Below, piece after piece: positions 34,154-37,691 of a stretch of 64,000 nucleotides of DNA. This DNA is from Pseudoalteromonas lipolytica (GTDB lineage Bacteria > Pseudomonadota > Gammaproteobacteria > Enterobacterales > Alteromonadaceae): contig NZ_LJTC01000006.1 of assembly GCF_001306915.1 (NCBI RefSeq), forward strand, positions 774 through 64,773, in the 5' to 3' direction. The notes beneath the pieces are model-generated. The model saw nothing but the letters and a program-made list of their open reading frames with translations, was not told the DNA's origin and searched no databases. Made by a program: the position numbers and the translations under genes. Position 1 is the first letter of the stretch, and each line of letters starts with the position of its first letter.

Positions 34154-34759
34154 CTACTGCACGCGTGCGGTTAAAAATTCAATGCTTTGCTGTAATAGCA
34201 ATGCGCCATTTGGCGTTAAAATTGATTCAGGATGAAACTGATAGCCAAGGGCATTATCTTGTTGATGGTAAATTGCCATCGGAATATTTTCATAACAAGC
34301 AATTACTTCAACGTCATCAGGGACTTTGGTTGCCATTAATGAATGATAACGAGCAACCGGCATTTTATCGCCCATACCCGCGAATACTGGGTGCTCAGTC
34401 AACGAAATAATTGATGACTTGCCATGCACAGTTTCACCTGCATGACCAATAACCCCACCGTAGCTTTGTGTTAGTGCTTGCTGCCCTAAACAGATACCCA
34501 GCATCGGGAAGCGACCTTTACACAGTTCAATGAGTTCCATTAAACAACCCGCATCAGATGGCGCGCCAGGGCCAGGTGATAGCACTAATAATACAGGCAC
34601 TGTCTCTTGGCACATTTTGTCGAAGATGCTTTGTGCACTGATGTTATTACGGTATACCACTAACTGGCACCCTAACATAGAAAGTTCATCGACTAAGTTA
34701 TAACTAAATGAATCAAAGTTATCTAAAAAGTAGATTTTATAGGCTGATGTTGTCGTCAT
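34154..34759 (-). CDS. trpG: Anthranilate synthase component II (glutamine amidotransferase)
   Basis: TrpG supplies ammonia from glutamine to TrpE. The 201-residue class I amidotransferase has the nucleophile Cys90 in GICLGQQA and the His-Glu pair in QFHPESILTP. Its start shares one base with the trpE stop, giving translational coupling. Similar proteins can serve pabAB, but the operon context fixes this as trpG. Confidence 0.96.
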   Translation of the reverse strand: MTTTSAYKIYFLDNFDSFSYNLVDELSMLGCQLVVYRNNISAQSIFDKMCQETVPVLLVLSPGPGAPSDAGCLMELIELCKGRFPMLGICLGQQALTQSYGGVIGHAGETVHGKSSIISLTEHPVFAGMGDKMPVARYHSLMATKVPDDVEVIACYENIPMAIYHQQDNALGYQFHPESILTPNGALLLQQSIEFLTARVQ

Positions 34760-36327
34760 TATTGTGCCTTGTAAGTCGATTGAATCGCAGTGATCACAGC
34801 TTGTGCTTTAGCGCGGGTTTCATTGGCTTCTGATTGTGGATCTGAATCAAACACCACACCTGCACCTGCTTGCACATAGGCTGTGCCGTTTTTAACAAAG
34901 GCAGAGCGAATAACAATACAGCTATCCATGGCGCCATCGCCTGTTAAATAACCCACAGCACCACCATAGCTGCCGCGGCGTTTTTGTTCGGTTTTACGAA
35001 CTAACTCAGCAGCGCGTACTTTAGGTGCACCCACTAAGGTGCCCATGTTCATACAAGCTTGGTAAGCATGTAGCGCATCGAGCTCAGGTTTTAAAGTACC
35101 CACAACGCGTGAAACTAAATGCATCACTTGTGAGTAGCGGTCTACTTTTAATAACTCTTTAGCGTGACGTGTGCCTGGTACGCTAATACGGGCAACATCA
35201 TTTCGCGCTAAATCAACTAGCATCAGGTGCTCGGCACGCTCTTTTTGGTCGTTGCGAAGTTCAAGCTCAATGCGGCTGTCTAGGTCTGGATTAATTTGCC
35301 CGTTAGCAAACTTGCCACGAGGGCGAGTGCCGGCAATAGGGTATACCTCAACTTGTTTACTCTCAGCGCAATATTTGAGGGCTGACTCGGGTGATGCGCC
35401 GAATAACACAAACTCTTCATCGCGCATATAAAACATATATGGGCTTGGGTTTTGTTGTTTTAATTGGCTGTAAGCATGAAGTGAGTCAGGGCAGGCGAGA
35501 GAAAAAGTACGTGATGGAACAACTTGGAAAATATCGCCATCAACGATGTTGTTTTTTAACTTGATGACATGTTCGCAGTATTGCTCGTCGCTAACATCAA
35601 CAGAAATTGGGTTTGAGCCTGTTTGTTTTTGCCCTTGGTAGCTTTGTGCATTGTCACATACGGCATTTAAACGCTCTAACTGTTGACCAACCTCAAAGCA
35701 GTTTGCATGGACTTCAGGGCCGTTAAATACGTTGCCAATTAGCTCGGTTGTTTTTGCTTGATGGTCGATGACAACTAACGTTTCTGCGAGGTAGAAAACA
35801 TAATCTGGGCAGCTGTTTTCGCCGTCAGGCACATCAGAAAGGGTTTCGAAATTAGCAACCATATCGTAGGCAAATACACCGCCTAAGAACACAGAAAATG
35901 GGTTATCTGTGGTGCTTTTAATACTATTAATACAGCTACGTAGCGCACTAAATGCGTTATCTGCTACTAATTTACTGGCTTCATCAATGTCGCTTGCTAC
36001 CTCGTTGTAGGTTAACGTTAATGTGTCTTCTACAAGCTCTGCAGAGCAGTTTTGCACATGAGTTTGTAAATAAGGCAGTAATTGTTTGCCGTTATTTGAC
36101 TGTGCAGTGAGTGTGACCTGTTTGCCTTGGCAAACAATACGTAGCGCTGAGTCAACCAAAATTAGACTTTTTACACTGTCTTTAGAATCAATTTCAGCAG
36201 ACTCTAACAGCAGTGAATTAGGCTTATCGAGTAAACTGTATAACGCAAGTGGGCTACTGATGTAATCGCGCACTTGAGTGATACTGGTTACTTCACCCGG
36301 TGTCGTTGTTATATGACTAAAAATCAA
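34759..36327 (-). CDS. trpE: Anthranilate synthase component I
   Basis: TrpE converts chorismate to anthranilate. The 522-residue protein carries the tryptophan feedback site LLES at about 40-43 and the catalytic C-terminal domain with YPIAGTRPRG, ELRNDQKERAEHLMLVDLARND and GAPKVRAAEL. Product inhibition by tryptophan is therefore expected. It is the first structural gene, preceded by a long leader with two attenuators. Confidence 0.97.
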   Translation of the reverse strand: MIFSHITTTPGEVTSITQVRDYISSPLALYSLLDKPNSLLLESAEIDSKDSVKSLILVDSALRIVCQGKQVTLTAQSNNGKQLLPYLQTHVQNCSAELVEDTLTLTYNEVASDIDEASKLVADNAFSALRSCINSIKSTTDNPFSVFLGGVFAYDMVANFETLSDVPDGENSCPDYVFYLAETLVVIDHQAKTTELIGNVFNGPEVHANCFEVGQQLERLNAVCDNAQSYQGQKQTGSNPISVDVSDEQYCEHVIKLKNNIVDGDIFQVVPSRTFSLACPDSLHAYSQLKQQNPSPYMFYMRDEEFVLFGASPESALKYCAESKQVEVYPIAGTRPRGKFANGQINPDLDSRIELELRNDQKERAEHLMLVDLARNDVARISVPGTRHAKELLKVDRYSQVMHLVSRVVGTLKPELDALHAYQACMNMGTLVGAPKVRAAELVRKTEQKRRGSYGGAVGYLTGDGAMDSCIVIRSAFVKNGTAYVQAGAGVVFDSDPQSEANETRAKAQAVITAIQSTYKAQ

Positions 36328-36357
36328 ACCTCATTCTCCCTCATTCCCAAAAACTCT

Positions 36358-36398
36358 TTAAAAAACAAAACCCCGCGAAGCGATGCTTGGCGGGGTTC
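36358..36398 (-). terminator. trp attenuator terminator 2
   Basis: On the minus strand a stem AACCCCGC/GCGGGGTT, with further pairing inside, is followed by TTTTGTTTTTT. Region 3 (36386-36394) could instead pair with region 2 (36437-36445) at eight of nine positions, forming an antiterminator that overlaps the leader-2 stop codon. Confidence 0.85.
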
Positions 36399-36440
36399 GT
36401 ATAAAGATGCCTATAAATTAGATAGACCCTTACCGTCCCG

Positions 36441-36491
36441 CTAAGCCAGGCGCCACCACCAATGATGTGTAAGAGTTGCTATGTAATTCAT
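36441..36491 (-). CDS. trpL: trp leader peptide 2
   Basis: A 16-residue peptide ending HHWWWRLA, with three consecutive TGG codons at 36453-36461. An AAGG Shine-Dalgarno lies seven bases before its ATG. It precedes terminator 2 and the antiterminator region begins at its stop codon, the normal design of a tryptophan attenuator in which ribosome stalling at Trp codons prevents termination. Too short for routine gene finding. Confidence 0.88.
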   Translation of the reverse strand: MNYIATLTHHWWWRLA

Positions 36492-36513
36492 TATAAAACC
36501 TTAAAATTTAGAT

Positions 36514-36543
36514 ATAAAAAAACCCGCTACTTGAGCGGGTTTT
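36514..36543 (-). terminator. trp attenuator terminator 1
   Basis: On the minus strand a stem AACCCGCT/AGCGGGTT with a five-base loop is followed by seven T. Region 3 (36534-36540) can instead pair perfectly over seven bases with region 2 (36570-36576), which lies just after the leader-1 stop. Confidence 0.88.
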
Positions 36544-36578
36544 GAAATCGTTAAACACGACAATTCGTCACCCGCTAG

Positions 36579-36623
36579 TTACGAGTGCCACCACCAAATT
36601 GTGATTTGAATTGTTTTGTTCAT
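36579..36623 (-). CDS. trpL: trp leader peptide 1
   Basis: A 14-residue peptide MNKTIQITIWWWHS with three consecutive TGG codons at 36588-36596. A region 1:2 stem (CACTCG with CGGGTG) can form from the end of the coding part and the following bases. Its Shine-Dalgarno is weak. It is the promoter-proximal of two leader peptides in this operon. Confidence 0.88.
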   Translation of the reverse strand: MNKTIQITIWWWHS

Positions 36624-36659
36624 TGTTATTGCTTATTTAACGTGTCAGAAAGTGCATAC

Positions 36660-36712
36660 AGTAAAGCGTACCTAAGCGGATACTGTCAAGTATTAATTTA
36701 CATAGTTAGTAC
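36660..36712 (-). promoter_or_regulatory. Putative trp operon promoter and TrpR half-site
   Basis: On the minus strand TTGACA (36684-36689) is followed after 18 bp by TTTACT (36660-36665), giving a start near 36652, about 30 bases before leader peptide 1. Just upstream, near 36695-36712, the sequence CGTACTAACTA resembles one half of the E. coli TrpR operator. The operator reading is tentative. Confidence 0.5.
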
Positions 36713-36851
36713 GATTTCGGCATTTACCCATCGCAATTGCCCATTTATGAGGGTAAAACACACAGCTATATAAGATAATCACGCCCTCGCAGTAAATTTT
36801 TGTTATACTCACATCATTGATTCAAGAACTTACGTAAAGCAGTCTTTCCCT
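36713..36851. promoter_or_regulatory. Rest of the trpE-trpH intergenic region
   Basis: The trpE-trpH gap runs from 36328 to 36851 and is mostly filled by the two trp leaders. The remaining 139 bp should hold the trpH promoter; TTGTTATACTC near 36805 has a TATACT that could be a -10 element. Nothing else was recognised. Confidence 0.35.
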
Positions 36852-37691
36852 TTGATAAAATACGATTTACATAGCCACACCACATACTCAGATGGTCAGC
36901 TATCAGTCGAGCAATTGTTACACCGCGCGGTTGAGAAAAACATAGATGTGTTTGCAATTACCGATCACGACACGTTAAGTGCGATAAAACCAGCTCGCCA
37001 AGTCATTGCAGATGATAATTTACCGCTTAAATTAATTGCTGGCGTTGAAGTATCAACAAAATGGGAAAGTTTTGAAATTCATATAGTTGGCTTAAATGTT
37101 GATGACGAAAATGACGCACTGTTGTCATTATTACAAGCGCAACAAGGCAAGCGTGAAGAGCGCGCTTTAGAGATAGGTCGTCGCCTTGCTAAAAATGGTT
37201 TTGAAGGCATTTACGACCAAGCAAAAACATTTGCCGAAAACGCCCAAATCACACGGGCGCATTTTGCCCGTGCACTGATTGAACGTGGTGTAGCTAAAAA
37301 CTTTCCTGGGGTATTTAAGAAATACTTAGGGCGAGGAAAAACAGGTTATGTACCAAGTAGTTGGTGCGATATGCAAACTGCAATTGCTGCCATTCATCAA
37401 GCCGGTGGGGTTGCCGTTCTAGCACACCCTGGGCGTTATCAAATGTCGAATAAGTGGCTACGGAAATTAATTATTGAATTTAAAGATGCCGGTGGCGATG
37501 CGATGGAAGTTGCACAACCACAGCAAGCACCCAGTGAACGCCAGTTTTTAGGTGAACTTTGCCGTGAATATGGCTTACTTGCGTCACAAGGGTCAGATTT
37601 TCATTTTCCGACCAGTTGGTTGGAGTTGGGTAAAAATTTATACTTACCAAAAGATTGCCAAGGGGTTTGGCAAGCATGGGAAGGGCAATAG
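36852..37691 (+). CDS. trpH: PHP domain RNase AM / 5'-3' exonuclease TrpH
   Basis: This 279-residue metal-dependent PHP-domain enzyme has DLHSHTTYSDG at the N-terminus, ITDHD, an AHPGR motif and SDFH near the end, all metal ligands. E. coli TrpH (RNase AM, formerly YciV) is a 5'-3' exonuclease that trims oligonucleotides and rRNA 5' ends. The start is TTG with no clear Shine-Dalgarno. The following yciO gene starts ten bases after its stop, as in related species. Confidence 0.93.
   Translation: MIKYDLHSHTTYSDGQLSVEQLLHRAVEKNIDVFAITDHDTLSAIKPARQVIADDNLPLKLIAGVEVSTKWESFEIHIVGLNVDDENDALLSLLQAQQGKREERALEIGRRLAKNGFEGIYDQAKTFAENAQITRAHFARALIERGVAKNFPGVFKKYLGRGKTGYVPSSWCDMQTAIAAIHQAGGVAVLAHPGRYQMSNKWLRKLIIEFKDAGGDAMEVAQPQQAPSERQFLGELCREYGLLASQGSDFHFPTSWLELGKNLYLPKDCQGVWQAWEGQ

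Follow-up and report, generated by a model that had tools for sequence, protein, structure and literature searches.

Two candidate tryptophan attenuators in series before trpE in Pseudoalteromonas

Described Attenuators and Tandem Sensors

The trp attenuator is a textbook form of RNA-based control and is known to be leaky. For Escherichia coli, a leak of 10-15% and about 10-fold regulation are given for the attenuator by itself, and about 70-fold for TrpR (PMC1183508); about 70% of E. coli cells without trpR are active at every tryptophan level, according to a second study (PMC13178558). A single attenuator normally controls such genes, as stated in work on the Salmonella mgtCBR leader (PMC3641672).

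The closest system in function to the one considered here is the pair of tandem Trp T-boxes of Bacillota. These tandem T-boxes precede trp operons, and a digital, pseudo-cooperative response is expected of them (PMC12452182). The closest system by name is the tandem attenuator of mgtCBR, which responds additively to two signals, ATP and proline, and which, by contrast with metE, is described as being without two intrinsic terminators (PMC3641672).

The leader of the Pseudoalteromonas trp operon resembles the tandem Trp T-boxes in placing two series sensors of tRNA-Trp charging before the same operon. However, T-boxes bind tRNA directly, whereas the Pseudoalteromonas units would sense charging through ribosomes on leader peptides, and an origin independent of the tandem T-boxes is likely. 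No T-box is found among the 18 Rfam matches up to E 5 in 35800-37400. Unlike mgtCBR, the codons indicate the same amino acid twice and there are two terminators. Trp is the sole codon type conserved in both leaders (region 1 of leader 1 additionally conserves a Ser codon), a pattern in favor of a single signal. An earlier note on this DNA had known of no clear description of a doubled trp attenuator in this group, and the openly readable literature likewise yielded none for a doubled trp leader-peptide attenuator; subscription reviews and surveys lie outside that scope, and an earlier report is possible.

Anatomy of the trpE Leader

The window, the whole stretch of 64,000 nucleotides analyzed, carries a trp operon on its minus strand in the order trpE, trpG, trpD, trpCF, trpB, and trpA. 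Upstream of trpE lie two leader open reading frames, each followed by an intrinsic terminator, and folding of the window sequence provides 1:2, 2:3, and 3:4 pairing partners for both units:

36660..36689, minus strand: promoter-like site upstream of leader 1; TTGACA (36689-36684), 18-nt spacer, TTTACT (36665-36660)
36579..36623, minus strand: leader peptide 1, MNKTIQITIWWWHS*, ATG to TAA; TGG TGG TGG at 36596-36588
36569..36587, minus strand: attenuator 1 1:2 hairpin; region 1 at 36587-36581, region 2 at 36575-36569 (CACTCGT/GCGGGTG)
36534..36576, minus strand: attenuator 1 antiterminator 2:3; 36576-36570 with 36540-36534, plus inner helices
36514..36543, minus strand: terminator 1 (3:4) with T tract; 10-bp stem at 36543-36519
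36441..36491, minus strand: leader peptide 2, MNYIATLTHHWWWRLA*, ATG to TAG; TGG TGG TGG at 36461-36453
36433..36452, minus strand: attenuator 2 1:2 hairpin, bulged; region 1 at 36452-36447, region 2 side at 36440-36434
36386..36445, minus strand: attenuator 2 antiterminator 2:3; 36445-36437 with 36394-36386, 8 of 9 pairs
36361..36398 (3' end approximate), minus strand: terminator 2 (3:4) with T tract; longer than terminator 1
34759..36327, minus strand: trpE, the operon's first gene; trpE-G-D-CF-B-A runs from 36327 down to 29767

These positions of leaders, terminators, and competing pairs had been proposed in the earlier note and are all confirmed, as are the three consecutive Trp codons of each leader. 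Each unit is of the E. coli trpL type (Rfam RF00513), with a short open reading frame containing adjacent Trp codons, alternative 1:2, 2:3, and 3:4 pairings, and a T tract directly before trpE. Unlike that type, there are two copies in series and no full-length TrpR was found in this genome. By anatomy each unit is ordinary, and the doubling is the variant. The Rfam Trp_leader model scores leader 1 at 33.2 bits and leader 2 at 19.8 bits, both below the gathering cut-off of 41, and no part of the window receives an annotation at gathering scores.

Two further features of the locus can be recorded here. In the alignments, each unit contains a similar sequence between regions 2 and 3, approximately GTCGTGTCTA for attenuator 1 and GTTGTATCTA for attenuator 2. 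The trpE of the window seemingly lacks an ATG, its frame starting at a TTG (36327) immediately 3' of GAGGT, unlike the trpE of one deep-branching species (L104), which has an ATG seven bases after GAGG.

Conservation across Pseudoalteromonas

The host genome is a Pseudoalteromonas: among the best 80 matches the nearest named genomes belong to this genus, with P. shioyasakiensis and P. gelatinilytica at 99% in TrpE. The region upstream of trpE was compared in 108 Pseudoalteromonas genomes. Two leaders, each with two to four consecutive Trp codons, are present in 104 of these, and one more genome (G022, L014) has W-G-W in leader 2, bringing the two-leader total to 105/108; the P. lipolytica record L132 has the same single Trp-run match as G022. 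This recurrence in 105 of the 108 genomes exceeds chance. Leader 1 reads WWW in all 108 genomes, and leader 2 reads WWW in 90, WWWW in 10, and WW in 4. Common to the peptides is the Trp run, and those of leader 1 also keep the Ser codon inside region 1. The rest of the peptide is variable. Of 102 leaders, just 39 in the case of leader 1 and 63 in that of leader 2 have a Shine-Dalgarno-like motif before them, which counts against the attenuator reading set out below.

The earlier note had named loss of a peptide or terminator in close relatives as a finding that would count against it. This objection fails: leader 2 is absent in just three of the 108 genomes (G060, G014, and G070), where leader 1 followed by both terminators remains. 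One idea for these three species, that terminator 2 is opened by arm 4 of the preceding terminator as a relay, finds no support: terminator 2 persists in the best fold with 2:3 forced.

With RNAfold, all leaders scored (108 listed as first leader, 103 as second) are followed by a terminator-like hairpin, the weakest at -11.0 and -9.4 kcal/mol, respectively. The first list counts leader 2 of L053, whose leader 1 lies beyond the 420-nt cut and whose terminator 1 is unscored; in L096 and L100 the best hairpin scored after leader 1 is terminator 2, and terminator 1 is present on inspection. Terminator 2 of 18 genomes falls outside the loop limits of a simple finder, and RNAfold detects all 18. In L053 (G045), trpE is also separated from the second attenuator by an insertion of ~265 nt, which the near relative L052 lacks.

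Structural Evidence for Each Unit

Both units display the parts of a ribosome-mediated trp attenuator, namely an open reading frame with a Trp run, a terminator, a 1:2 hairpin, and an exclusive 2:3 antiterminator, strong in attenuator 1 and moderate in attenuator 2. In the window fold, the stem of terminator 1 reaches -13.8 kcal/mol (z -6.0), and attenuator 1 deprived of arm 4 adopts the 2:3 antiterminator at -18.4 kcal/mol (z -2.7). An alignment, A1, holds 69 rows, comprising the 70 distinct attenuator 1 sequences with near copies L003 and L008 omitted and the window added; rows L057 and L066 lack part of the 3' end. Within A1, the 1:2 pairs are intact in 94% of cells compared with at most 51% when slid, and one pair undergoes two-sided exchange among GC, AU, and UA, with covariation above that of shuffles. 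Terminator 1 pairs are intact in 91% of cells (at most 58% slid), the top pair being GC, AU, or UA. The base of 2:3 is nearly invariant, with 83% of its pairs intact (at most 53% slid) and covariation in A1 not above shuffles. Even so, z for the antiterminator segment lies below -1 in 69/69 aligned sequences (mean -3.2). Weaker evidence comes from 2:3 complementarity, which exceeds that of shuffles at p up to 0.05 in only 30 of 57 sequences, and from the alignment-based consensus fold, which retains four pairs. The complementarity test used 57 of the 70 sequences, 11 having no parsable terminator and two more being too short. Unit 1 is thus well supported.

Terminator 2 folds at -20 kcal/mol (z -4.8) in the window, where a simple consensus terminator scan lists terminator 1 only. 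The antiterminator of attenuator 2, likewise folded without arm 4, reaches -24.7 kcal/mol with z -1.0 in the window alone, no clear gain over shuffled sequence. In the corresponding alignment, A2 (70 rows from 70 distinct sequences, the window replacing L003), the 1:2 pairs are intact in 92.5% of cells against at most 58% when slid, with covariation not above shuffles. For the antiterminator segment, 61 of the 70 rows have z below -1 (mean -2.0); 2:3 complementarity exceeding that of shuffles at p up to 0.05 is seen in just 10 of 70 sequences, and the alignment-based consensus fold contains no pairs. Region 2 reads AGCGGG almost without exception across the genus alignment. Taken together with strongly conserved codons and terminator, these data support unit 2 moderately. 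A separate observation concerns L109 (G061), whose attenuator 2 region 2 is short of one base in the alignment, and which is the sole genus genome with a split trpE match containing in-frame TGA codons.

A Proposed Mechanism of Two Serial Checks

The reading we favor, with a probability of about 0.82, is that one promoter drives two complete ribosome-mediated Trp attenuators in series. The earlier note had proposed two such units before trpE, and both the window sequence and the 108 genus genomes bear this out. A ribosome on each leader peptide would sense charged tRNA-Trp. When tryptophan is plentiful, the ribosome would reach the stop codon and mask region 2, so that terminator 3:4 ends transcription; when tryptophan is short, the ribosome would stall on the Trp codons, region 2 would pair with region 3, and RNA polymerase would continue. 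Because the polymerase would have to clear both checks, the read-throughs would multiply, so that by arithmetic basal expression would be low and one signal would evoke a response both steeper and wider; the earlier note had likewise expected a sharper or wider response. The sequences show the parts, how they are ordered and conserved, and no full-length TrpR in the genomes searched. What we infer is that termination occurs, that it depends on tryptophan, that each check acts independently of the other, and why selection has kept both.

One alternative is that a single unit senses tryptophan and the other is a largely constitutive terminator or a decaying duplicate. In its favor, three genomes have leader 1 and two terminators without leader 2, leader 2 of P. 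lipolytica has lost one Trp codon, and the pairing statistics of attenuator 2 are weaker than those of attenuator 1. Nevertheless, at least two Trp codons are kept in leader 2 of 105/108 genomes and are consecutive in 104, the AGCGGG of its region 2 barely changes, and both units are already present in the deepest genus branch of the TrpE tree, making a single sensor improbable.

A second alternative gives each attenuator its own promoter and transcript, with the two working in parallel and not in series. Upstream of leader 1, TTGAC or TTGAT occurs within 110 nt in 106/106 genus genomes checked (L001 and L053 excluded), and TTTACT follows the -35-like box in 8/8 relatives whose sequence was inspected. 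The spacer between terminator 1 and leader 2 is short, with a median of 28 nt and a range of 18-90, and TTGACA/T is absent from it in 103/103 genomes; terminator 1 itself, and any -35 box within it, lies outside that scan. The parallel arrangement draws on a 10-of-12 match, TTTATA-17-TATAAT, that overlaps the start of leader 2. A transcript from this site would, however, start within leader 2, 3' of its ATG, and promoter matches in the region do not exceed shuffles (1 found, 1.7 expected). Separate promoters are thus very improbable, and a single transcript most likely traverses both terminators.

Least credible of all is that terminated leader RNAs or peptides act in trans and that the second unit is kept for this. 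Such peptides do exist, as reported for Sinorhizobium peTrpL (PMC7298713), but those considered here vary widely outside the Trp run and a few adjoining residues (43 distinct peptides for leader 1 and 45 for leader 2, L053 excluded), so that codon sensing fits better than a conserved peptide product.

TrpR and a Possible Reason for Two Units

No full-length TrpR is found in the 108 genus genomes; nine of them give weak partial matches to the Trp repressor family (positions 31-81), one barely at the cut-off. Similarly, none of 395 family genomes, some from Pseudoalteromonas, has a TrpR above the cut-off, whereas TrpR is present in 52 of 148 genomes of the order. If the two attenuators each performed as in E. 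coli and were independent, simple arithmetic would predict a leak of ~1-2% and a range of up to about 100-fold. In a family without recognizable TrpR, attenuation alone could then reach the range that one attenuator plus TrpR provides elsewhere.

Absence of TrpR as the sole cause of the doubling is weakened as an explanation, because family genera with a single attenuator are also without TrpR; this absence alone does not demand a second unit. The doubling is also not general in this genome: the 700 nt upstream of the his operon contain a single His-rich leader and, as judged by eye, there is a single terminator. Looking near pheA for Phe-rich leaders yielded nothing useful.

Second Leaders and Mini-ORFs in Relatives

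Reading of 60 further genomes of the family identified one Trp leader in 49 and none in one. Three (G128, G178, and G135) have two leaders, each with a terminator, the peptides of G178 being identical to those of Algicola sp. L173. The remaining seven, from one genus grouping with Rheinheimera, have one attenuator and a second mini-ORF near trpE encoding W-R-W-W, which is followed by a short hairpin in two of them.

A second Trp-rich mini-ORF was also judged by eye to be present in 17 of 69 genomes sampled from the order, 16 of the 17 being without a stable terminator hairpin (the exception is L334). Second mini-ORFs of the W-R-W type lie between the attenuator and trpE in the following loci:

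L178, L180, L183, L185, L192, L193: second W-R-W mini-ORF, Rheinheimera and kin
L297, L309, L316, L319, L324, L325, L326, L332, L336, L341, L344: second W-R-W mini-ORF

These W-R-W mini-ORFs span four families (f1, f11, f12, and f25) and mostly lack a terminator. The motif is encoded by TGG CGA TGG in 11 of 14 loci inspected and in three of four Rheinheimera-like loci. CGA is a slow codon, and the mini-ORF is possibly a translational second check. No second mini-ORF occurs in the 30 genomes with full-length TrpR, compared with 17 of 39 without it (Fisher p 1e-5, relatedness not removed). In family f11, the sole TrpR-bearing genome has no second mini-ORF and the other six have one.

These distributions hint that a second Trp checkpoint before trpE is a recurrent, order-wide replacement for TrpR. 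It would take the form of a full attenuator with terminator in Pseudoalteromonas, the Algicola-like genomes, and G128, and of a mostly terminator-less, and then translational, W-R-W mini-ORF near trpE in Rheinheimera, f11, f12, and f25. This generalization is tentative, with the balance tilting somewhat against it.

Other arrangements were seen in passing. A different Trp-rich leader, KSWFIWWLQPLYAG, lies near trpE in L334 (G119) and L310 (G108), which represent two genera within the family; G119 has two leaders, each with a hairpin after it, and this one comes second. In another family of the order, G484:C6:234866-235010 contains two TGGTGGTGG runs in 145 nt, about 1.2 kb upstream of trpE, and may be a further doubled attenuator. 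Wider surveys with a paired-Trp-run DNA pattern matched 84 of 369 genomes of the class and 95 of 299 of the phylum, but the reversed control also matches many, making the pattern too noisy for a rate; G484 was the one lead that it supplied.

Origin of the Doubling

In a 101-row TrpE tree, the 45 rows from Pseudoalteromonas fall into a single supported group (99*), and its deepest branch (T1lg88, T1lg75) is already doubled. The tandem duplication suggested in the earlier note is evident in deep-branching species only. In three of these (L105-L107), counting from the Trp codons, the two units share 27-29 of 30 nt, with z 7.6 to 9.7 for the 30 nt 3' of those codons, and each peptide finishes with WWWHS and one further residue; a fourth, L104, shares 25/30 nt with z 4.9. 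The units are weakly alike in the other 16 of the 20 genomes compared (14-18 of 30 nt, z -0.3 to 4.1), as illustrated by L003, which encodes the same two peptides as the window and matches at 15/30 nt with z 2.0. Two histories would fit this pattern, tandem duplication at the genus base or repeated copying between units in the deep branch.

Implications

A natural doubling that is kept through almost the whole genus and accompanied by no found repressor offers a direct test of whether placing attenuators in series makes repression multiplicative, gives a sharper response, and can stand in for a repressor protein. If the proposed mechanism is true, the Pseudoalteromonas leader would be a ribosome-based counterpart of the Gram-positive tandem T-boxes at the same operon.
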